From: a virus
Reading direction: 5' to 3' (one strand)
Virus record (IMG/VR): IMGVR_UViG_3300028837_000519
Location: 1-23,362 of that record
Length of the DNA: 23,362 nt
The notes beneath the pieces were generated by a model. That model had not been told where the DNA came from. It did not search any database and saw nothing but the letters and a program-made list of their open reading frames with translations. Both the position numbers and the translations under genes were made by a program. This document shows positions 7,086 through 21,485 of this stretch, in pieces (position 1 is the stretch's first letter; the number at the start of each line of letters is the position of its first letter).

Positions 7086-8039
7086 TTATGGGATCAGTGC
7101 TGCGAATGGATACCGATTAGCCTCGGTTTCCTCTAAGCGGTTGATCGGATTCGGGAGCTGCCAGCCAATGCGCATAACGCAACGGAGGGCTACCATGTCC
7201 TGTTGTGGCAGGTTGTAAACGATTGCCCCGGTAGCATCCTGGATCACGGCTTCGGTCAGGAGCTTATAGGTGATGTCCTGACGAACCGAGTAGACCAACT
7301 GACTCCAATCACCAAGGATCATGTGGGCCTGGGCGACATCCCAACAACCATTCCGTGGGAAGTACATCGGCTCACCATCCAGCATATATGGAGATGCGTC
7401 CTGCATGGAACGTGAGAAGATCAAGTTTCCATCAGCGTCACGTAATCCACGCAATTGAGCGCGCATACTCAGATCGGCCACTGCGCCAGAATGTGCAAAG
7501 CCATCTTCCTCCACGAAGGAAATAACTCCACCCACATCGCAGATGTCCGTATAGATGTCGGCACCAGCACCCAATGTCACTGTATGAGCTGCATCGGATA
7601 CCGCTGCACAACCCGCTAGAATATCAGTCGGCCAAGTGGCAGGAGCATTGGTTCCAAAGAGAACCGCAGCATCGAAAACACGACCAAATTCAGCGACGAT
7701 TTGGGGTTTAATTTGTGCCCAAATGTCGTAATCAACGTCATCGAGAACGGTTTGTGGAATTGGAGCAATGACAGCGATCTCTTCGGCGTTGATGTATTTG
7801 TTCGCCCAATTGATCTCAGTGGTTTGTTTCAGACCCTTATCTGTCGGATTCACGAAATAACCAGTTGGGAACAATGAGAGAACGGGCATACGATACTGAG
7901 CACGAGACATATTAGCCAGTCTTTTTCCAAGGCGCATAACAACGGATTCCTCCGTTATACCTTGGACGATTTCCCGCTGTACTTCTTCGGGAATCAGTGC
8001 CGCAGCGTCATCTCTTGAAATGTAATCTGTGTAACCCAT
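7086..8039 (-). CDS. Major capsid protein (HK97 fold)
   Basis: The 317-residue product follows the scaffold gene and fits the phage_capsid family. It opens with ISRDDAAALIPEEVQREIV, then the ESVVMRLGKRL and MPVLSLFPTGYFV strands, the spine-helix-like stretch DYDIWAQIKPQIVAEFGRVFDAAVLFG and the P-domain and A-domain strands, and ends with LRCVMRIGWQLPNP followed by FAALIP. It builds the icosahedral shell. No prohead protease gene is visible nearby and the N-terminus is short, so maturation probably uses the separate scaffold. SD GAGGTG lies before ATG 8039. Confidence 0.92.
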   Translation of the reverse strand: MGYTDYISRDDAAALIPEEVQREIVQGITEESVVMRLGKRLANMSRAQYRMPVLSLFPTGYFVNPTDKGLKQTTEINWANKYINAEEIAVIAPIPQTVLDDVDYDIWAQIKPQIVAEFGRVFDAAVLFGTNAPATWPTDILAGCAAVSDAAHTVTLGAGADIYTDICDVGGVISFVEEDGFAHSGAVADLSMRAQLRGLRDADGNLIFSRSMQDASPYMLDGEPMYFPRNGCWDVAQAHMILGDWSQLVYSVRQDITYKLLTEAVIQDATGAIVYNLPQQDMVALRCVMRIGWQLPNPINRLEETEANRYPFAALIP

Positions 8040-8058
8040 GACGACACCTCATAATTTT

Positions 8059-8655
8059 TTATGTTTGCCTCCCAGCCGAGCGACGAATATACTCATTCAT
8101 ACTAGCCGGTTGACCTAGATCATCCCCAGCTCCTGCCCCAGCACCGCCGGGGGGTTTGCGGGGCGATTTGACGAACAATTCGGGAAAGTCTTTTTTCATC
8201 TTCTCGAAATCGACATTCCCTCGCTTGTCGAACAAGTCCTCAGTTATGGCCACATGGTAGGCCAGCTTGAGATTAGAAATGCCAGCCTCATGTGCATCTT
8301 CATAAAAGTCCGCCTTGGTATTCCCTACCGCCACGGCATCTGCCAGCTTCAGGACTTCTTTCTGCGCTTCGCTGCCTTCTTCTAACTTTTTAGCAACATC
8401 GCGCAGATCCTTCTCTGCCTCTCCACGAGCATCCCGCTCGGTCTTAAGGGCAGTCCTAAGACCACTTTCGCGTTCAACGATAAGGGCTTGAACTTCCTTC
8501 GGCAAAGTCTTGTGCCAAGCGTCCCAGTCCAATGCTTCTGGCTGAGTTTTACCCTTATCTTTGGAAAGATCCCCTTCCCCGTCCCCGTCTTTGTCGTCGC
8601 CTCCCGCGCCGCCATCTTTATCGAGGACAATCATGCGTTCAAACAAGTTATTCAT
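8059..8655 (-). CDS. Capsid scaffolding protein
   Basis: The product is 198 residues from ATG 8655 (SD GAGGGAG 5 nt upstream; ATG 8658 and 8673 are less well placed). It is very acidic at the N-terminus (a GGDDKDGDGEGD run) and has a central coiled coil (about residues 60-115, with ERDARGEAEKDLRDVAKKL). It continues with NLKLAYHVAITEDLF and ends with a Gly/Ala linker and the basic tail NEYIRRSAGRQT. This layout, just before the capsid gene, is typical of scaffolding proteins whose C-terminus contacts capsid subunits. Its leader holds two hairpins with a shared loop, which may control its translation. Confidence 0.85.
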   Translation of the reverse strand: MNNLFERMIVLDKDGGAGGDDKDGDGEGDLSKDKGKTQPEALDWDAWHKTLPKEVQALIVERESGLRTALKTERDARGEAEKDLRDVAKKLEEGSEAQKEVLKLADAVAVGNTKADFYEDAHEAGISNLKLAYHVAITEDLFDKRGNVDFEKMKKDFPELFVKSPRKPPGGAGAGAGDDLGQPASMNEYIRRSAGRQT

Positions 8656-8666
8656 CATATCTCCCT

Positions 8667-8704
8667 CTGGCATCCCGCCAGAACTAGCATCCCGCTAATT
8701 AGTT
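8667..8704 (-). promoter_or_regulatory. Twin hairpins with identical GGGAT loops abutting the scaffold RBS
   Basis: On the minus strand two small hairpins lie in tandem: TAGC-GGGAT-GCTA (8697-8685, with possible outer AAC/GTT pairing) and CTGGC-GGGAT-GCCAG (8681-8667). Stem sequences differ but pairing and the five-base loop are the same. The second stem ends at the first base of the GAGGGAG Shine-Dalgarno site. This is the layout expected of a translational operator; the binding partner is unknown. Confidence 0.5.
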
Positions 8705-8717
8705 CGAGAGTCCTACT

Positions 8718-8753
8718 TAAACAACAAAACCGGCCACCTAAAAGATGACCGGT
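8718..8753 (-). terminator. Intrinsic terminator in the scaffold/capsid leader
   Basis: On the minus strand a 10-bp stem ACCGGTCATC / GGTGGCCGGT (with G-U pairs) with loop TTTTA is followed by TTTTGTTGTTT. It lies about 160 nt downstream of the promoter at 8920-8948 and before the scaffold gene, so transcripts from that promoter should stop here unless antitermination or readthrough occurs. Confidence 0.75.
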
Positions 8754-8913
8754 CGCAACTTCGGTATTTCAGCCCGCAAGCTGGGAGCGCTATGCTCCTA
8801 GTTTTTTAGAAGCCCCTGTCCAGGTCGCTCACGGAGGCTTTCCGCATCTAAGTACGGCTGTTCACTCTTTCGGTTATACGTCCGGCGTGCCCTCGATGCA
8901 GGGGCTTCTATCC
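8754..8913 (-). ncRNA. Structured leader RNA, copy 2 (with insertion)
   Basis: This is the stretch between the estimated start site (about 8913) and the terminator stem. It holds hairpin 1 GGAGC-ATAGC-GCTCC (8784-8798), hairpin 2 CAGCT-TGCG-GGCTG (8770-8783) and a linker ending TTGCG. The same parts in the same order occur upstream of terS with compensatory base changes in both stems. Unlike that copy, it carries about 109 extra bases (8804-8912). The RNA may be a short stable transcript or an antitermination/attenuation leader; the sequence does not tell which. Confidence 0.6.
8804..8912 (-). repeat. 109-bp structured insertion bounded by a 12-bp perfect inverted repeat
   Basis: Relative to the copy upstream of terS, extra sequence starts after CCTAGTT (plus strand) and ends before CGATGACAGTCTA. 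Its ends are TAGAAGCCCCTG and CAGGGGCTTCTA (8807-8818 and 8899-8910), perfectly complementary. Inside there are further complementary pieces such as GCATC/GATGC and CGGA/TCCG, so the RNA could fold as a closed multibranch domain. I do not recognise a known riboswitch or ribozyme. It could be a small ncRNA domain or a MITE-like insertion. Confidence 0.55.
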
Positions 8914-8919
8914 GATGAC

Positions 8920-8948
8920 AGTCTACATGCTACAGATGCACTTGTCAA
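8920..8948 (-). promoter_or_regulatory. Sigma70-type promoter, copy 2
   Basis: On the minus strand TTGACA (8948-8943), a 17-nt spacer and TAGACT (8925-8920). The same -35, spacer length and -10 occur in the copy upstream of terS, along with conserved bases upstream (GACATTCC) and downstream (GTCA). It lies just after the stop of the gp7-like gene and would drive the scaffold, capsid and tail genes. Confidence 0.8.
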
Positions 8949-8964
8949 GGAATGTCATTTGGCA

Positions 8965-9990
8965 TTACTGCAAATCCGCAAGATTAGTTATTCCTATCGA
9001 CGGGCCCCAGATCGGATGTACGCTCCTTTGTACCAAGTCCTGTAAACCTATTGTTCCTTGCTCATATAGAGCAAACTTTCCAGGTCCCATCATCTGTTTC
9101 TGTAGACTGGGATCCTGTCTAGCAAACCAAGTGCCCGCCAGTTCTCTCTCCGGTGGAGCCACGCCAGAAACATGCGGGATCATAGTGCATCGATCGTTTG
9201 GATGGACTTCCATCAACTCGCTTGTGTGATAAATCGTTCCGTCCAATGCAATGCAAGCCATACAAGTATTTGGCAACCTGGCTGCCAAGCGTTCGTATTC
9301 TGGTACTGCTCCACTTGCCTCATACTGTTGTCTGGAAGCTTCCCTATAAACTCTCAGTTGCTCAGTACGAGCAATAGTGGTAATTCGATTCAATCCTTCA
9401 GCCATTCCGTCCATCATGTGCCTAGCAGTCTCCCCGGGTGGATAGCCCAATGCAACGCCTTCGATCAGAGCATTTGTCATTCGCTCGGCAGAAGCGGGAT
9501 ATGCTTCTTGTAATAGATCGCCAAGCGGACCACCTGGCCCAGCCATTCTCACCATATTTTCAACTGCCAAAACCGGAAGGCGATTGAACTCAATCCCAAT
9601 TCCCATGCCAGCTTCGAAATAAGATAGTTGGATTGCGTTTACTGAGTGTTCGACACCTAACCTTCCCAATAATTCCTGTCGAACAGCAATCTCGTTTATT
9701 GCCCATTCGTTATAAATGCCCATTTCTGCGTTCAACTGAACCAACAATTTTTGATACCTGTCCATTTTCAACAATCGATTGACACCAACCACCTCTCCTG
9801 AAGCCCGCATTTCGCTTATTTCTCTGGCTAACAAACTGATTTGTGCCTCAAGTGTATTCTCCAGTTGATGCCAATGCTCGGCCATTACTATCATGGTCTC
9901 GGCATCTTGAGCGATCAATAATTGCTTGTGTTCCCGAAGACGCCGTACAACCACGCTGGTGTCTGGGGCAGGCGGTAAGGGAAGGGCCAT
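8965..9990 (-). CDS. Head morphogenesis protein (SPP1 gp7 / Mu gpF family)
   Basis: The 341-residue product has an alpha-helical N-terminal two thirds and the family's signature at the C-terminal side: ARTEQLRVYREASRQQY (about 207-223), CMACIALDG (CxxC at 243-246) and HPNDRCTMIP (263-272), which probably form a metal-binding Mu F-like domain. SPP1 gp7 is a minor head protein that binds the portal and influences DNA ejection. The gene normally follows the portal gene directly; here seven genes lie between. SD GGAGAGG precedes ATG 9990. The next promoter and leader start right after its stop. Confidence 0.92.
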   Translation of the reverse strand: MALPLPPAPDTSVVVRRLREHKQLLIAQDAETMIVMAEHWHQLENTLEAQISLLAREISEMRASGEVVGVNRLLKMDRYQKLLVQLNAEMGIYNEWAINEIAVRQELLGRLGVEHSVNAIQLSYFEAGMGIGIEFNRLPVLAVENMVRMAGPGGPLGDLLQEAYPASAERMTNALIEGVALGYPPGETARHMMDGMAEGLNRITTIARTEQLRVYREASRQQYEASGAVPEYERLAARLPNTCMACIALDGTIYHTSELMEVHPNDRCTMIPHVSGVAPPERELAGTWFARQDPSLQKQMMGPGKFALYEQGTIGLQDLVQRSVHPIWGPSIGITNLADLQ

Positions 9991-9992
9991 TA

Positions 9993-10298
9993 CTATACCT
10001 CTCCAATGATATAGCCCCAGCCCTCAAAAACATTGCCAAGATGTATCCACATAACCTCAAGACGATATTTCATTCCTGCTTCGAGATCCTTTACAACTGA
10101 TGTCGTAATCACATCGCCCACTGCCGAAGGCGCGCCATCCAGCTTAGTGTCTGAAACATCTGTGCCATCTTTGTCTTTCAATACATTGGTCGCATCGCTG
10201 GTATAGCCTTCCCATTCACTCGTATCGACCTCGTAGGCCAATTCTTCGTCTTCTCCCTGAAATACAGGGCTATTCGTGAATTCCCTTTTACTGCTCAT
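9993..10298 (-). CDS. Small structural protein of the adhesin cassette, 101 aa
   Basis: The product begins MSSKREFTNSPVFQGEDEEL and is acidic and beta-rich, with YTSDATNVLKDKDGTDV and a C-terminal LEAGMKYRLEVMWIHLG. The pattern resembles small beta-sandwich domains in which a property of a compound is measured against chain attributes, as in phage accessory fibre proteins, but no family is certain. Its ATG overlaps the stop of the repeat protein gene (ATGA) and has the SD GGAGG, so the two are probably coupled and may act together. It is followed after two bases by the gp7-like gene. Confidence 0.65.
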   Translation of the reverse strand: MSSKREFTNSPVFQGEDEELAYEVDTSEWEGYTSDATNVLKDKDGTDVSDTKLDGAPSAVGDVITTSVVKDLEAGMKYRLEVMWIHLGNVFEGWGYIIGEV

Positions 10299-12724
10299 CT
10301 GTCCTCCAAGACTAGGGCTAACGATCTAGAAGCCATAATCAATTCCACTGATCGCTTATCTAGTATGAATTCAACTATGCCCGTGATTTTGATTGTGCCA
10401 ATTATGGGTGCATATCCAGCAAGCGTCAGGTCTGCAAGCGGAATTGTAAGATCAACATTCGCCGTTGCTAATATTTCGGGGGCATATCCGAGCAGATCCA
10501 GACTTGCAACCGGGATTGTAATACTCATCGGGGTTGCTATATTTGGAACATATCCTGTGAGTGTCAGTGCGCCAGAAGGAATGGTTATTTCTACCGGAGC
10601 CCCAATAGTCGGCAGATAGCCTGTCAATGTTAGAGAAGCTACAGGAACTTCAATCTCAACTGGGGCAGTAACGCCCGGAACGTAGCCAGTCAGCGTGAGC
10701 GACGCAACCGGAACAATCACTCCCTCGCCAATGATGACCGCATAACCCGTTAGAGATAATGAGGCTACCGGGATCACATAGGCAACGGAGACATCTGGAG
10801 CGTATCCTGTCAGGGTGAGAGAGACAACTGGAACCGTGATTCCTGTGTCGATTATTGGGACATATCCCGCCAAAGTGAGTGATGCAACGGGAACAATTAT
10901 CCCAGTGTCGATGGCGGGAGCATAACCCGTAAGCACGAGTGAAGCCACGGGAACGATAACGCCTTCATCTATGGATGGAGCATATCCCGTCAAAGTCAAT
11001 GACGCTACAGGAACCGTCATTCCTTGTGGATTGGCAACGTCTGGAACATATCCGGTTAATGTGAGTGAAGCAACGGGAATGGTAATCCCAGTATCAACAA
11101 TCGGGGCATAGCCTGTCAAAGATAATGATGCTATGGGGACAGTGATGCCAGTATCTACGATTGGCGCATAAGCCGCCAGAGTAAGTGAGGCAACAGGAAC
11201 AGGGACACCCCTACCCGGGACGGGCACATATCCTGTCAGGATCAATGATGCGACAGGGACTTCAATGTTGATATGTCCTACCGCTACGACTGTGGGAGCA
11301 TAACCTGTTAGAGTCAGCGATGCCGTGGGGACTTCTATATCAATATCAATTGCAGCTATGACCGTAGGAGCATATCCCGTCAGTGTTAGCGATGCAACAG
11401 GCACACCAATTCCGACACATCCCACGCTTGGCACATAGCCTGTAAGAGTTAATGAAGCGGTAGGAACTTCGATCTCTACCAGCTCACCAGCAACAATAAT
11501 CGGAACATAACCGCTGAGAGTTAGCGAGGCGACGGGAACGACGATACCCGTGTCAATTATAGGAACGTAACCCGCGAGTGAAAGCGAGGCAACCGGAACA
11601 GGGACTCCTCTACCTGGGACAGGCACATAACCGGTAAGCGCAAGCGACGCGACGGGAACCACAATTCCCGTATCAATTACAGAAGCGTAACCAGTTAATG
11701 TTAGAGAGGCAACAGGTACGACAATGCCAGTATCGACAACGGATGCGTAACCCGTTAGCGTTAGCGACGCGACAGGAACAGGAACACCAACGCCGACGAT
11801 AGGTACATAACCCGTAAGTGCGAGCGATGCGGCAGGAACTATCGTTCCCTGTGGATTATCAATGTCTGGAATATAGCCCGTCAAAGTAAGCGATGCGACA
11901 GGAACAACTATTCCAGTGTCGATAATTGAGGCATATCCCGTCAGGGTGAGGGATGCAACCGGGACCACAATGCCCGTGTCAACGATGGGCGCATAACCAG
12001 CCAGAGTAAGCGAAGCGACTGGTACAGGAACGCCCCTGCCGGGTAATGGCACATAGCCAGTCAACGTCAACGAAGCAACTGGCACCACTATTCCTGTATC
12101 AACGATGGAGGCATATCCAGTCAGAGTCAACGAGGCAACCGGGACTGTCATTCCCTGGGGGTTATCAATTTCCGGTGCGTATCCAGTTAGTGTTAGCGAT
12201 GCAACTGGAATGGGGACACCTACTTCAATAAGAGGTGCATATCCAGTTAGTGTTAGCGACGCAACCGGGACAGGAACACCTACCTCGATAAGAGGCACGT
12301 AGCCAGTCAAAGTAAGTGATGCAACTGGAACTGTCATGCCTTGCGGGTTGTCGATTTCTGGCACGTAACCCGCAAGCGTCAAGGAAGCTACAGGAACCAC
12401 AATCCCGCTGTCAACAATTGGGACATATCCTGTTAGGGCGAGAGATACAACGGGAACCGGAACGCCTCTGCCGGGAACGGGTACATAGCCCGTCAGAGTT
12501 AATGAAGCGACGGGGACTACTATACCGGTGTCAATAGGCGGGGCATATCCGGTTAAGGTAAGCGATGCAACGGGAATGGTCATTCCTTGTGGATTAGTAA
12601 TACCCGGAACGTAACCCGTTAGCGTTAGAGAAGCTACTGGAATCTCAATATCAATGTTATCTGCAACTGCGACTAGGTTATAGTCCGGCTCATCGAAAAA
12701 GAGATACCAAGACTTCGCGCCCAT
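10295..12724 (-). CDS. 809-aa tandem-repeat protein (VPVASLTLTGYxP repeats)
   Basis: After a short N-terminus (MGAKSWYLFFDEPDYNL) the protein consists of about 36 copies of a 19-24 residue unit with core VPVASLTLTGYAP and a variable linker. It ends in a non-repeat tail of about 30 residues with hydrophobic strands (VEFILDKRSVELIM). Each unit looks like two short beta strands, so a stacked beta solenoid or long fibre is plausible. Linkers fall in a few classes (DTGIV, PGRGV, NPQGMT, EVGV). Codons differ strongly between units while residues are conserved. No Cys-rich, catalytic or membrane features are visible. It lies in the surface-protein cassette and its stop overlaps the next gene. Adhesion or fibre function is inferred. 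Confidence 0.85.
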   Translation of the reverse strand: MGAKSWYLFFDEPDYNLVAVADNIDIEIPVASLTLTGYVPGITNPQGMTIPVASLTLTGYAPPIDTGIVVPVASLTLTGYVPVPGRGVPVPVVSLALTGYVPIVDSGIVVPVASLTLAGYVPEIDNPQGMTVPVASLTLTGYVPLIEVGVPVPVASLTLTGYAPLIEVGVPIPVASLTLTGYAPEIDNPQGMTVPVASLTLTGYASIVDTGIVVPVASLTLTGYVPLPGRGVPVPVASLTLAGYAPIVDTGIVVPVASLTLTGYASIIDTGIVVPVASLTLTGYIPDIDNPQGTIVPAASLALTGYVPIVGVGVPVPVASLTLTGYASVVDTGIVVPVASLTLTGYASVIDTGIVVPVASLALTGYVPVPGRGVPVPVASLSLAGYVPIIDTGIVVPVASLTLSGYVPIIVAGELVEIEVPTASLTLTGYVPSVGCVGIGVPVASLTLTGYAPTVIAAIDIDIEVPTASLTLTGYAPTVVAVGHINIEVPVASLILTGYVPVPGRGVPVPVASLTLAAYAPIVDTGITVPIASLSLTGYAPIVDTGITIPVASLTLTGYVPDVANPQGMTVPVASLTLTGYAPSIDEGVIVPVASLVLTGYAPAIDTGIIVPVASLTLAGYVPIIDTGITVPVVSLTLTGYAPDVSVAYVIPVASLSLTGYAVIIGEGVIVPVASLTLTGYVPGVTAPVEIEVPVASLTLTGYLPTIGAPVEITIPSGALTLTGYVPNIATPMSITIPVASLDLLGYAPEILATANVDLTIPLADLTLAGYAPIIGTIKITGIVEFILDKRSVELIMASRSLALVLEDR
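10400..12640 (-). repeat. About 36 degenerate tandem repeats, period near 60 bp
   Basis: Within the repeat-protein gene the plus strand shows a recurring pattern close to gcatatccngtnannntnannga(a/g)gcnacnggnac about every 60 bases. Copies differ mainly at third codon positions, with linkers from about 6 to 11 codons. The period jumps with the linker type. It is coding, not a CRISPR array. Confidence 0.9.
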
Positions 12725-16959: not shown

Positions 16960-17210
16960 CAAAATCCCTTCCTCGCGAGTACCTTTCTGGCCTCGCTTTC
17001 GACTAATTCTTTCCGGTTCCGGTTTGCAGCTAAAAGATCGATCTCAGACACCATAAAGGTATATCCGCACGTCTGACAGCTATACCCTTTTGATGCTAGT
17101 ACCTTAAAGGAAAACACTAGAAAATTGTTATAACACTTAGGACATCTGAAGCCAGACAGATTATGGATCCGCTTCTTTTCGGGTGATTTAACGTTACTCT
17201 GCATCAGCAT
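16959..17210 (-). CDS. Zinc-ribbon protein, 83 aa
   Basis: Cysteines at 23, 26, 45 and 48 (RCPKCYNNF and YSCQTCGYTF) form a two-knuckle zinc ribbon, followed by a helical charged tail (ANRNRKELVESEARKVL). The start ATG at 17210 lies within the portal gene's last codons (17-nt overlap), a sign of translational coupling. Role unknown; it may bind nucleic acid or a portal-associated protein. Confidence 0.75.
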   Translation of the reverse strand: MLMQSNVKSPEKKRIHNLSGFRCPKCYNNFLVFSFKVLASKGYSCQTCGYTFMVSEIDLLAANRNRKELVESEARKVLARKGF

Positions 17211-18708
17211 TTTCTTTCCCTTTACCCTTGCGTATTTCGTCTAACAACGCCAGCACAGGCGATGCTTCGCCCTCTGATTTCTTGTCTGCTTCCATCTGCT
17301 TAATCCAGGCATCGTCCTTGCCCTCATTCCGAAGTAGCGTATTCAATGGAATACCAGCTCTCTTGCCGCTCTCTCGGATCTCCGCCTGGGTCTTGGGTTG
17401 GATGGTTTCAGGATCAGCAAAATTCACAACGATGTCCCGCTTTTCTATTTCAATTCCTCGGATCTTCAGCATGAAACGAGCGGCGTCTTTCCATACTGGC
17501 TTAAATTGAGCAATATGTTCCTGACAGCGCTTGACTAGTGGTGCCTCCATAGCAATGAGAGCTTCGCCACTTGGAGTTCCACCCTGACCATAAAGATAGT
17601 GCTTCGGGGTTCGGCTGATAATAGCGATGGCCGATGCCAGACTGTCAATAGCATCAACGTAATTTTTGAGTTCGGTAGCCTCAAACTGTCCTACCGATGA
17701 TTGTTGGCCTGTTCCATCTCCGGCGGGGACTTCCCACATTTCGTTAGGGGCATTCTTTAGGCTGCTTGTGTCTGCATTGCTGATTATCCATCGTTGCTTG
17801 AACGCACCATATTCTGCTGCAACCATCATGTCCGTGACCAGTTTGTTAATACCATTCTGTAGAGGAATCGCATTGGTTAGATCGCTTTTGATCTGGCGCC
17901 GCTCAAGTCGGTAATGAAAGAATGGGACTTCGCCATACGGGTTTTCTGGCCTAGTGCCAGCAATGTCCTCGTCTAGCTTTTCAAGGGCTCCTTCAAGTGC
18001 TGGATTCATAGGAATACGTGCTGACAATTTCGGTCGTAAATTTATGGGCGGGAACCTCCCCGTTGTAGGGTTGAAAGGTCTAAACGCCCGATAATCATGG
18101 ATCTGCATATTCGGTTTCTCTGTTCGGTAATATTCCAGCCTGTCAGGATAATAGAGCGTAAGGCGCACGAAATTCGCAGAGTCTACCCACCATTTCGCTC
18201 CAAATCGTTTCTTGTTAGGATTGCCAGGTTCATAAAATAAATGGCATAATCGAGGATCATTGTAGAAGACCTGGAGCTCGTCTTTCTCCTCATCATTAGT
18301 TTCTGCCCAAATCATGAGGAATGATTCCCCGATGACCAGGGCCGCCTCATGAACGTCGCTGGCCTCTACCGCCAGGCCGAAATCTTCCCAGTCTAATGCC
18401 AGTTGCTTTTCTACCTTGGCATCTTTTGAAGATAGCGAGTCCAACATAATACGATCATTGGCCGAATCGATCACCACTGCACACCAATTCTCTACAAACT
18501 TAGATAGTTCCAAGTCCTTGAAAATATCATCCATCCGTCTACTGGTGTACATCAATGGCTGATCACCGTCATAGTATTTCCATAGCAGATTGTAGATAGA
18601 CAGCTTCCCGGATAAGGCTTGATAAGCACGGTCCAAATCGTTCACGGGCAACTTGGATGCTCTGGATCCCTGTATGATTTTGGTTAGAATCGCACCAGGA
18701 TTTGCCAT
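17194..18708 (-). CDS. Portal protein (SPP1 gp6-like)
   Basis: The product is 504 residues from ATG 18708; a TTG at 18723 is in frame but lacks an SD. It belongs to the Phage_prot_Gp6 portal family: LDRAYQALSGKLSIYNLLWKYYDGDQPL near the start, NWCAVVIDSANDRIML, the long wing region, then NPYGEVPFFHYRLERRQ, NGINKLVTDMMVAAEYGAFKQRWII and the crown/stem helices (PKHYLYGQGGTPSGEALIAMEAPLVK), with an acidic and Lys-rich C-terminus. The ring of 12 subunits forms the DNA entry channel. It follows TerL after two small zinc-ribbon genes, close to the usual order. Confidence 0.95.
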   Translation of the reverse strand: MANPGAILTKIIQGSRASKLPVNDLDRAYQALSGKLSIYNLLWKYYDGDQPLMYTSRRMDDIFKDLELSKFVENWCAVVIDSANDRIMLDSLSSKDAKVEKQLALDWEDFGLAVEASDVHEAALVIGESFLMIWAETNDEEKDELQVFYNDPRLCHLFYEPGNPNKKRFGAKWWVDSANFVRLTLYYPDRLEYYRTEKPNMQIHDYRAFRPFNPTTGRFPPINLRPKLSARIPMNPALEGALEKLDEDIAGTRPENPYGEVPFFHYRLERRQIKSDLTNAIPLQNGINKLVTDMMVAAEYGAFKQRWIISNADTSSLKNAPNEMWEVPAGDGTGQQSSVGQFEATELKNYVDAIDSLASAIAIISRTPKHYLYGQGGTPSGEALIAMEAPLVKRCQEHIAQFKPVWKDAARFMLKIRGIEIEKRDIVVNFADPETIQPKTQAEIRESGKRAGIPLNTLLRNEGKDDAWIKQMEADKKSEGEASPVLALLDEIRKGKGKENADAE

Positions 18709-18715
18709 TTTATCT

Positions 18716-18964
18716 CTACCCAAGAAGTTTAATTAGTTGGCCGAGCAAATCTTTTATCTCAGTTAGAAGTCCGGTGTAGTCGGGTTGGAATGGTCGGTAA
18801 TTTACCCAAACCCGACAATATGATTGATTGGGCCAACAACAATGGAAATCGTTGTAATTCACCCACGCTCCACAAATCGGACACGTATATCCTCCCTCCG
18901 GGTATGTACCAAAATGAACGTATCCAGTTTGTCCTATATCACAATTACTTATTGTTTCGTTCAT
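18716..18964 (-). CDS. Small Cys/Trp-rich zinc-binding protein, 82 aa
   Basis: Cysteines at 28, 31, 42, 43 and 50 (YTCPICGAWVNY, DFHCCWPNQ) suggest a small zinc-binding fold. The C-terminal helix LLTEIKDLLGQLIKLLG is a regular amphipathic segment, as in oligomerisation or anchoring helices. SD GGAGAGG precedes ATG 18964. It lies between TerL and the portal gene with a neighbouring zinc-ribbon gene. No family recognised. Confidence 0.7.
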   Translation of the reverse strand: MNETISNCDIGQTGYVHFGTYPEGGYTCPICGAWVNYNDFHCCWPNQSYCRVWVNYRPFQPDYTGLLTEIKDLLGQLIKLLG

Positions 18965-19224: not shown

Positions 19225-20538
19225 TTAACCCTGCCTACTAGTCGCTTTCTTTTTGACGCCACTATCAAGATACATCACGCCATATCTCATCGCGTCCATA
19301 CCGTGATCATTTTCTTTGACTGGCACTTCTTTTGCTGGTCTACCCTCGTTTGATTTAGGCCACACATATCCCTCAATCTCTTCTAGCGTGGATGTTGGCT
19401 TTCGGCTATCTAATAATCGCCCGTCTTGCTCTACCAAAGCGCCGCGCATGAAATACAACCGTGCCTTATTGTCTCCCGCAATCAATAGACGTTTCTGTAC
19501 TGCTTGTATCCCGGGCGATATGCTCTTTTTCGCAGGCTGAGTAATAATTCCATATCGATGTAATGTGGCCCTATCCTCAGCGTCATGATCGGAAACGCTT
19601 GCTTCTATCCTTTCTCTATTTGGGTCCGGTTTTCCGTTCTCTAGATACCAGTGTTCTACTTCCTTGATCTTCTTGGCATGATCTTCAACAATTCGTTGGC
19701 TCATATAAATTTCACGATAAAGACACATCCTGCCATCATCGTCAATTGCCCACCAATGACACACAAAAGGATTGGTATATCCAAAGTCAATTGATCTAAT
19801 TCGTCTCCAGCCGATCGGTGGTTCAAAGTAATCTAATATATGAATCGCCGCATCATAATCCGCATAAACCGCTCCCTCTGCTTGTATCCATTTCCCGTCG
19901 CGAAGTCTTTTCCCCATTACACCTGTAAGACTTGCCAGTGTTTCTAAATAAGCTGGCGGGTTATGTGGGTTATCCATAGCCCCGCTGTAATAGACCTTTG
20001 CTTCACCTCCAACAATCAATCTACGATTAATCCAATGAGTAGGCGCATCCGGATTTGTTGTTAGGATGGTTTGCAGCCAAGGTGCCGCTGTTCCCCGCAT
20101 ACGTGCCAAAACTTCCTGATAATCATCTTCGGAAAATTTATTTGCTTCCTCCATCCATAAAATATCTACTCTACCTTCCTGGCCTATAGATCGGATTTGC
20201 TCCCGCTGTTCTTCATTTTTCATTCCTCCATAAGCCAAAATTGAACCATTTGAATACTCAAATCTATTTTTCGATGGGTAGTGTTTTACCTCTGGATGTC
20301 TTGCGATTACCGTTCGATCCATAAAAAGCACGGTTGAATTTGTCATGCTTTCCCGGGTTTTACGCAACATAACCGCCATCGCGCCGGGGTATCGCAGACA
20401 ATATCCATTGATTTTTTCAGCAGCTAATCTCGATTTTCCGCCTCCCGCACTTCCTGTAAATAATACGACTGGCGAAATGTCTTTCCAGGGTGCTATCTGC
20501 CACTCAAGCGGCTCGAATAGATTGATATTCTCATTCAT
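19225..20538 (-). CDS. terL: Terminase large subunit
   Basis: The 437-residue product has a Walker A GSAGGGKS (29-36), a Walker B VDILWMEE (124-131) and the coupling motif TTNPDA (160-165). The C-terminal nuclease part has the acidic sites SIDFGYTNP (D251), VSDHDAED (about 315-322) and NDHGMDAMRY (410-418). This is the ATP-driven packaging motor and headful or cos-cutting nuclease. It fits the Terminase_6/Terminase_3C-type families. ATG 20538 overlaps the TerS stop region by eight bases; a GTG at 20541 is in frame. The SD is weak, so coupling to TerS translation is likely. Confidence 0.95.
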   Translation of the reverse strand: MNENINLFEPLEWQIAPWKDISPVVLFTGSAGGGKSRLAAEKINGYCLRYPGAMAVMLRKTRESMTNSTVLFMDRTVIARHPEVKHYPSKNRFEYSNGSILAYGGMKNEEQREQIRSIGQEGRVDILWMEEANKFSEDDYQEVLARMRGTAAPWLQTILTTNPDAPTHWINRRLIVGGEAKVYYSGAMDNPHNPPAYLETLASLTGVMGKRLRDGKWIQAEGAVYADYDAAIHILDYFEPPIGWRRIRSIDFGYTNPFVCHWWAIDDDGRMCLYREIYMSQRIVEDHAKKIKEVEHWYLENGKPDPNRERIEASVSDHDAEDRATLHRYGIITQPAKKSISPGIQAVQKRLLIAGDNKARLYFMRGALVEQDGRLLDSRKPTSTLEEIEGYVWPKSNEGRPAKEVPVKENDHGMDAMRYGVMYLDSGVKKKATSRQG

Positions 20539-21019
20539 CACCGTTCTGAGGCCAATCTTCAGGACTTATAATTACATAACCCTTAATTGGGCGGTCGCCG
20601 CTAGTAACATCTAATCGCTCTTTAAAGAGCCCGTGATGCTTGCCAATCAATTCAAGCGCCTGTTGACTACTATAAAGCTCTATCTCAACACCATACTTTG
20701 TGTGCTTTATTTTCTTAATAAGCTGCCCAAATTCTGCCACTTTTTCAGTATCTATTAAAAAGGTCCTCTTGCCGGTCGGCTCAATTACATTCGTGATAGA
20801 CGCCCTGGCTTGATCCGCAAGTCTCGCGAGAACTTCGTCAGCTCCCATCGCCTTCTCTTTTATGCGTTTGGCAATTACTTCTTGAAGGTCAGGAATAGTC
20901 AACAAAAAACTGGCAGCTCGCTTTGGGTATTTATATCCAGCCCGGCGCGCTGCTTCGGCTCCATTCCAGCATTCAAGATATTCTTCTATGAAAATGCGCC
21001 GCTTATTGGTAAGCGCCAT
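20531..21019 (-). CDS. terS: Terminase small subunit
   Basis: The 162-residue product has the Terminase_2-type N-terminal HTH: NKRRIFIEEYLECWNGAEAA, then RRAGYKYPKRAASFLLTIPDL, followed by VIAKRIKEKAMGADEVLARLADQARASI. This N-terminal pattern is diagnostic of the family. The rest holds oligomerisation strands and TYPE-like residues around QALELIGKHHGLF. TerS binds the packaging site and loads the motor. Its ATG follows a promoter, hairpins and terminator leader at once, with a modest SD (TAGGA). The gene overlaps TerL. Confidence 0.93.
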   Translation of the reverse strand: MALTNKRRIFIEEYLECWNGAEAARRAGYKYPKRAASFLLTIPDLQEVIAKRIKEKAMGADEVLARLADQARASITNVIEPTGKRTFLIDTEKVAEFGQLIKKIKHTKYGVEIELYSSQQALELIGKHHGLFKERLDVTSGDRPIKGYVIISPEDWPQNGDE

Positions 21020-21035
21020 TCGAGGATCCTATTTA

Positions 21036-21067
21036 AATAACAAAACCCGATGCTTAAAAGCACCGGG
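21036..21067 (-). terminator. Intrinsic terminator in the terS leader
   Basis: On the minus strand the stem CCCGGTGC / GCATCGGG (one G-U pair) with loop TTTTAA is followed by TTTTGTTATTT. It sits between the promoter at 21125-21153 and the terS start, about 60 nt after the likely transcription start, so it would stop short transcripts unless readthrough occurs. Confidence 0.78.
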
Positions 21068-21118
21068 CGCAAGTCGGAAATTTCGGCCCGCAGGCCGGGG
21101 TCGCTCTGACCCTAGTTC
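21068..21118 (-). ncRNA. Structured leader RNA, copy 1
   Basis: This is the stretch between the estimated start site (about 21118) and the terminator stem: hairpin 1 GGGTC-AGAGC-GACCC (21098-21112), hairpin 2 CGGCC-TGCG-GGCCG (21084-21097) and a linker AAATTTCCGACTTGCG. The same order occurs in the scaffold leader with compensatory changes. The loop TGCG and linker end TTGCG are identical in both copies. The RNA would be about 80 nt including the terminator. Confidence 0.65.
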
Positions 21119-21124
21119 GTTGAC

Positions 21125-21153
21125 AGTCTATATGTTATCAGTCTGTATGTCAA
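21125..21153 (-). promoter_or_regulatory. Sigma70-type promoter, copy 1
   Basis: On the minus strand TTGACA (21153-21148), 17-nt spacer and TAGACT (21130-21125). Identical hexamers and spacer length to the promoter at 8920-8948, with shared bases GACATTCC upstream and GTCA downstream. It would drive the terminase, portal and surface-protein genes. Confidence 0.8.
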
Positions 21154-21178: not shown

Positions 21179-21469
21179 TTATGCTGGATGCGCAGCCCCA
21201 TTACACATCACATCTCTAAGCATGGCGTTTGCCTTGGCAGTTATTTCGCCTTGGAATTCAAGGGAACTGACTATCTCCAAGACATCCTTCAATGCCTCAT
21301 TCTCGGTTTCGAGTTGGGTGACTTCCTCCTCCAACTGTGTAAAGGCTTCTCCCCAATCAGATGCAGATTTTCCGCAGTCGATACAGCAAGGCCAAAAGAA
21401 CTCCGTTCCAACAGTGGTGATAAGAGGCCTCTTGCGTAAACGGTGTTTGTGTTCATACGACTTCTCCAT
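21179..21469 (-). CDS. Coiled-coil protein with a CxxCxxC motif, 96 aa
   Basis: The N-terminal part holds FFWPCCIDCGK, a possible metal site. It is followed by a clear coiled coil, EAFTQLEEEVTQLETENEAL, and a helical tail. Two ATGs are adjacent; AGGTG is better spaced for 21469 than 21472. It is the last gene before the terS promoter, and no terminator is seen between its stop and that promoter. The coiled coil resembles small phage accessory proteins. No function is recognised. Confidence 0.65.
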   Translation of the reverse strand: MEKSYEHKHRLRKRPLITTVGTEFFWPCCIDCGKSASDWGEAFTQLEEEVTQLETENEALKDVLEIVSSLEFQGEITAKANAMLRDVMCNGAAHPA

Positions 21470-21485
21470 CATTCACCTACCTTTT

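Follow-up and report, generated by a model that had tools for sequence, protein, structure and literature searches.

To our knowledge, RNA-encoded antiterminators have been described in few systems (put, EAR, canT and conAn), and most of what is known of antitermination at late genes comes from the lambdoid Q system. The put RNA of phage HK022 binds the zinc-binding domain of the RNA polymerase beta' subunit directly and confers antitermination without other factors. Its two stem-loops, ~70 nt in all, have long stems interrupted by bulges; it serves early genes, and its two copies, putL and putR, are situated at different distances from their promoters, putR lying ~270 nt from its start (PMC9378689). 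For the canT element of Tn916, a 452-bp fragment was tested for its action on distant terminators, and conAn of pLS20 needs the protein ConAn1 (PMC11658703, PMC8955417).

The window analysed here is the whole stretch of 23,362 nucleotides, a virus record that corresponds to an incomplete phage genome (a fragment) with its late genes on the minus strand. These include terS (20531..21019, PHROG 51), terL (19225-20541), the portal gene (17194-18723), a MuF-type head protein gene (8965-9990), a scaffold gene (~8059-8658) and the major capsid protein gene (7086..8039, PHROG 10). Two related leaders were identified, both on the minus strand. Leader B (21153-21038) is placed between terS, the first gene behind it, and a gene directly upstream (21179-21472, minus strand) that encodes a 97-aa protein; this protein has a CCxxC motif and is predicted to contain a coiled-coil-like stretch. 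Leader A (8948-8718) is placed between the MuF-type gene and the scaffold gene and thus precedes scaffold and capsid. The region between portal and scaffold also encodes an 809-aa protein (10295-12724, minus strand) with ~30 repeats of 60-66 bp periodicity, and a 628-aa beta-helix protein shares a block with it; the two possibly form an unusual insertion in the head module and may be receptor-binding or decoration proteins.

The sequence TTGACA-17-TAGACT was found at exactly two sites in the 23.4-kb window, and behind these two predicted promoters lay the window's two strongest sites resembling intrinsic terminators (12- and 10-bp stems). In leader B, the promoter (21125..21153; -35 TTGACA at 21153-21148, 17-nt spacer, -10 TAGACT at 21130-21125) is followed by hairpin 1 (21098..21112, GGGTC/AGAGC/GACCC), hairpin 2 (21084..21097, CGGCC/TGCG/GGCCG), the linker AAATTTCCGACTTGCG (21068..21083) and a predicted intrinsic terminator with a TTTTGTT tail (21038..21068, 10-bp stem, -16.1 kcal/mol). 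The corresponding elements of leader A are the promoter (8920..8948; -35 TTGACA at 8948-8943, 17-nt spacer, -10 TAGACT at 8925-8920), hairpin 1 (8784..8798, GGAGC/ATAGC/GCTCC), hairpin 2 (8770..8783, CAGCT/TGCG/GGCTG), the linker AAATACCGAAGTTGCG (8754..8769) and a predicted intrinsic terminator with the tail TTTTGTTGTTT (8718..8754, 12-bp stem, -17.2 kcal/mol). All the leader elements listed in the initial annotation were thus present on the minus strand in both copies: promoter, hairpin 1, hairpin 2 with the loop TGCG, a 16-nt linker ending in TTGCG, terminator and TTTTGTT, with the post-terminator sequence also in common. Its statement that only structure and a few unpaired bases were fixed proved too narrow, as TGACATTCC upstream of the -35 element, GTCA after the -10 element and TTTTGTTRTTTAARTAGGAYYCTCGAA after the terminator were conserved as well. 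When the window was scanned independently for this structure, both leaders were returned, along with one spurious match on the plus strand.

The block comprising hairpin 1, hairpin 2 and the linker was exactly 50 nt long and ungapped in both copies, with 13 substitutions between A and B, seven of which fell in the 20 stem positions. As had been claimed, the stems differed by compensatory changes: all ten hairpin pairs were formable in A and in B (10/10 each), and the changed pairs comprised three double compensations (GC/TA, AT/GC and AT/GC) and one wobble. When the seven stem changes were placed randomly, all pairs were kept in 1377 of 2,000,000 trials, and with their positions held fixed in 14547 of 500,000. 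A column-shuffle control gave 60/500 and has little power with two sequences. The two leaders were 73% identical over 151 nt once the insertion in A (see below) was removed, and the homology spanned the whole leader, including the non-structured parts. The latter would be expected if an ordinary late promoter and terminator region had recently been duplicated and its fold were unselected, but all ten pairs are intact in both copies despite 27% divergence (1377/2,000,000 by chance), which makes such a history very improbable. The compensatory changes therefore support selection acting on the RNA fold, as proposed earlier, with hairpin 2 of copy A as the caveat. This hairpin is the predicted minimum-energy fold in leader B; in leader A, it competes with a longer pairing of the linker and is outcompeted once the linker is included (-13.8 kcal/mol versus -17.3 kcal/mol for the alternative, with pair probabilities of ~0.01). 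Thus, hairpin 1 is secure, while hairpin 2 in A would at best form co-transcriptionally or as part of a switch. The 5' arm of the terminator was predicted to be mostly free in A and in a weak local hairpin in B, with no strong conserved upstream competitor, and attenuation via mutually exclusive hairpins is not clearly supported by these models.

The initial annotation had overlooked a 104-nt structured stem-loop present only in leader A (8807..8910, minus strand), because of which the two are not collinear. This insertion separates the promoter from hairpin 1. It is bounded by a 12-bp perfect terminal stem (TAGAAGCCCCTG/CAGGGGCTTCTA), contains inner stems and has a predicted fold more stable than shuffled sequences (z -3.3); neither a match in Rfam nor a counterpart in the relatives of the phage was detected. 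As a result, hairpin 1 lies 12 nt behind the -10 element in leader B and 121 nt behind it in leader A, whereas the spacing between hairpins and terminator is unchanged. It can be argued from this that the RNA block acts together with the terminator and not with the promoter. Since the promoter distance varies approximately tenfold at a fixed terminator distance, the RNA element, and not the promoter DNA, is likely to be the specificity determinant.

On this basis, we propose that both leaders may be cis-acting RNA gates on late transcription, operating via conditional read-through or antitermination, a reading to which we give even weight for and against. The sigma70-type promoter would fire, and the nascent RNA would fold into the two hairpins with the conserved linker. 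Around 15 nt past this block, RNA polymerase would reach the intrinsic terminator, where most transcripts would stop by default. The gate would open when the RNA block engages RNA polymerase, either directly or together with a phage or host protein, allowing read-through into terS-terL-portal from leader B and into scaffold-capsid from leader A. The promoter activity, termination, read-through and participation of any factor in this scheme are deduced from the sequence; among the genes of the window, a 23-kb fragment, no antitermination protein was recognised. With these qualifications, a new antitermination or attenuation system, as suggested initially, remains reasonable to suppose.

The leaders were compared with the described systems. 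They have in common with put two adjacent stem-loops (predicted in B and pairable in A) and the presence of two related copies in the phage, of which one closely follows its promoter and the other lies at a greater distance, comparable to the 12 and 121 nt observed here. In contrast to the long bulged stems of the ~70-nt put RNA, the two hairpins here span 29 nt and have 5-bp stems; put serves early genes with terminators far downstream, whereas these leaders precede late genes and the terminator lies ~15 nt behind. No sequence relation between put and the hairpin block was detected. By description, canT and conAn are also similar, being cis-acting leader RNAs near the start of a long mobile-element operon, which a terminator separates from its promoter. 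The likeness to lambda pR'-tR' consists in a late promoter, an intrinsic terminator shortly after it and then the late genes; in contrast to lambda, no Q-like protein was recognised here, and the second copy lies midway through the late genes. Membership in the put or the lambda Q system is not supported. Of the two parallels drawn in the initial annotation, that with lambda Q held for the order of promoter, terminator and late genes and fits poorly otherwise, because the distance between hairpins and promoter is not fixed and nothing resembling Q was recognised among the proteins of the fragment. By analogy, a put-like, RNA-encoded read-through signal appears to fit better than the lambda Q model.

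A Q-like mechanism would require a phage protein loading at the promoter DNA or at a promoter-proximal pause, with the hairpins being incidental. Some observations are in its favour. In L136, a 12/12 promoter is followed directly by a terminator and then by holin, endolysin, terS and terL, a lambda-like gene order in which promoter, terminator and lysis/packaging genes resemble pR'-tR'. Furthermore, TGACATTCCTTGACA and TAGACTGTCA are common to both promoters of the window and could hold a protein site, and the 97-aa gene with the Cys motif just upstream of leader B occupies the position of Q in lambda. However, none of the genes preceding leader B in the 23-kb fragment had a Q-family match, and the 97-aa protein had no homologue among the relatives of the phage. 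The conserved RNA block, moreover, shifts relative to the promoter and not to the terminator: as a loading element at a fixed promoter distance of the lambda Q type, it would have to act from 12 nt in one copy and from 121 nt in the other, while the conserved DNA around the -35 and -10 elements could load a protein. Overall, we consider a Q-like mechanism unlikely. It is more improbable still that the terminated transcripts of 90 to 200 nt are themselves the product, i.e., trans-acting small RNAs made from strong promoters. A strong predicted promoter, a compact folded RNA, a good terminator and two diverged copies would suit such RNAs, but copy A carries the 104-nt insertion, no seed that was both conserved and accessible was identified, and the location immediately ahead of terS and scaffold, together with the shared region of the ribosome-binding site, speaks for a role in cis.

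The search for homologues of the hairpin block was uniformly negative. No Rfam family scored above its gathering threshold, either in the window (best E-values of 0.98-3.7, and 1.4 in leader A) or in 15 relatives. Pattern scans of IMG/VR yielded 29 matches to the shared promoter, none with hairpins or a terminator behind it, no matches to hairpin 2 plus linker, four matches to the loop bases, none of them confirmed, and one match to hairpin 1, which was coding. Neither blastn against phages and plasmids nor a covariance model of the two hairpins run over 128 other loci detected a homologue. A covariance model search (R2) of 400 Chloroflexota genomes gave best matches of 31-22 bits; those inspected (L141-L144, L150) were coding-like, had no terminator nearby and were judged to be chance. 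The exact motif is thus an orphan with two copies, and its covariation rests on two sequences. Further covarying homologues, whose absence the initial annotation had named as counting against its proposal, were not found in any of these searches, so a widespread family of this motif is not supported.

The order of elements, in contrast to their sequence, recurred in related phages. TerL relatives reached 69% identity in IMG/VR, and the best one in cellular genomes was a Chloroflexota MAG (43%); a TerL relative was present in 5 of 400 Chloroflexota genomes, which makes a Chloroflexota host plausible, if unproven. Capsid relatives reached 73%, and L003 was collinear with the window for portal, MuF, scaffold (36% identity) and capsid (55%). 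A scan of 393 kb for promoter, terminator and gene in this order gave seven cases on the late strand, including the two from the window itself and some near-identical contigs, and none on the other strand. The architecture was observed before capsid or other late genes in L003, L164, L176, L185, L056, L117 and L136, with unrelated leader sequences. The first four carry it at the orthologous place, the MuF/scaffold junction: L003 has TTGATG-17-TATAGT before the scaffold gene and a leader fold with z -5.1, and L176 has a 12/12 promoter (TTGACA-17-TATAAT) there. In L056-L058, the hexamers of the window (TTGACA-17-TAGACT), two hairpins and a nested terminator precede protease-scaffold-capsid, and in the Chloroflexota prophage L117, the architecture was located before the gene preceding terL, which had no PHROG match. 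Among 17 distinct terminators situated just before scaffold genes, the window's own included, four had a promoter of at least 10/12 at most 230 nt upstream, versus a background of 1.5% in random windows of the same size. The proposal that a terminator behind the promoter controls late genes thus gains support from the same architecture at equivalent places in related phages; what these relatives share with the window is the order of promoter, leader and terminator, and not, as the initial annotation had envisaged, the leader itself. For terS, the evidence was sparse: a terminator preceded this gene in only a few of 90 relatives in the TerL set, and a relation of the leaders through terL alone appears weak. 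L072 was not counted for terS, since the gene behind its leader was an RNase E-like PHROG and not terS. Separately, the motif ACAACCGARNA or AACCGAATA was noted ahead of the scaffold-proximal terminator, at a distance of a few tens of bases, in L170 (~3370), L173 (~2230), L193 (~5270) and L219 (~5265), and is perhaps a third leader type.

A second type of leader was recognised in the relatives found via portal or capsid proteins. In L003, L164 and L179, a 20-nt motif (CCAGGAAC-N3-5-GACNCACGG) is located directly before the terminator, and a pattern scan found the same motif in L247, L253 and L258, among the matches listed. The matches listed for this variable-gap pattern were mostly chance, and only those with a terminator directly behind were kept. 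These CAGGAAC-type leaders (L003:12569-12607, L164:5267-5314, L179:2303-2353 and L247:14680-14730; on the minus strand, L253:137-182 and L258:374-421) consist of one hairpin with an ACCA-containing loop, the linker CCAGGAACN-AGACACACGG, an intrinsic terminator and, where identified, a structural gene. The hairpin precedes the motif in most members and its stem covaries; as the alignment was fitted to its model, the covariation counts lean towards that model. The leaders of this type had no match in Rfam and none in phages, and the matches of a covariance model of the family (R3) inspected in the 400 Chloroflexota genomes lacked a terminator and were rejected. Like the leaders of the window, they combine a hairpin, a conserved linker and a terminator before late genes; unlike them, they have one hairpin and show no sequence relation. 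In L003, L164 and L179, they are located at the scaffold junction. Thus, leaders with no sequence relation that are nevertheless built alike, from a hairpin, a conserved single strand and a terminator, occupy the same genomic place.

These relatives also bear on the possibility that the terminators are constitutive and partial, i.e., attenuators that adjust late mRNA levels and reduce spurious transcription with no dedicated antitermination, the two hairpins stabilising the 5' end or a short RNA. A scaffold-proximal terminator with no recognisable promoter is present in many relatives, among them named isolates such as Acutalibacter phage Fontainebleau, as would be expected of an internal terminator adjusting expression ratios, and this keeps a passive attenuator under consideration. 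The T-tracts of A and B, interrupted as TTTTGTT, are also in its favour. In contrast, the hairpin loops and the linker are conserved between the two copies beyond what 5' stability needs, and the other leader types keep a conserved linker sequence beside the terminator. We regard purely passive attenuation as possible, though rather doubtful.

A further element, separate from the leader, was found between terminator A and the ribosome-binding site of the scaffold gene. It consists of two tandem GRGAY hairpins (8667..8697, minus strand; TAGC-GGGAT-GCTA at 8697-8685 and CTGGC-GGGAT-GCCAG at 8681-8667), with another within the scaffold gene at 8439-8427. The likely scaffold start is 8658 or 8655, 8673 being disfavoured as it falls within the second hairpin. 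Hairpins of this form (stem-C-GRGAY-G-stem) were present in 1-3 copies just upstream of scaffold in ~40% of 62 capsid relatives (L151-L153, L161, L164, L170, L173, L179, L181, L184, L188, L194, L196-L198, L203, L206, L218, L219, L221, L225 and others), nearly always on the sense strand. The outer stem covaried over 38 distinct copies (32 double-sided change cells versus 11.6 in shuffled alignments; score 0.377 versus 0.112), and no Rfam match was obtained in 15 relatives. A translational operator for capsid-gene expression would be a reasonable guess.

Taken more broadly, it is a tentative possibility, one we would not yet favour, that the late operons of a group of uncultured phages, some of them from Chloroflexota, are controlled by assorted short, fast-evolving antiterminator RNAs placed between promoter and terminator at the starts of packaging and capsid modules, unrelated in sequence and interchangeable in function. 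If so, the two-hairpin leaders described here and the CAGGAAC-type and other leaders of the relatives would be members of that assortment. The two diverged, compensated leaders and the differently led relatives provide compact parts (~100-230 bp) with which it can be tested whether a late terminator can be opened by RNA alone. Our results suggest that terminators of capsid modules commonly serve as regulatory points that annotation has missed, and that the transcription of structural genes may be held at a stop until RNA polymerase is let through.
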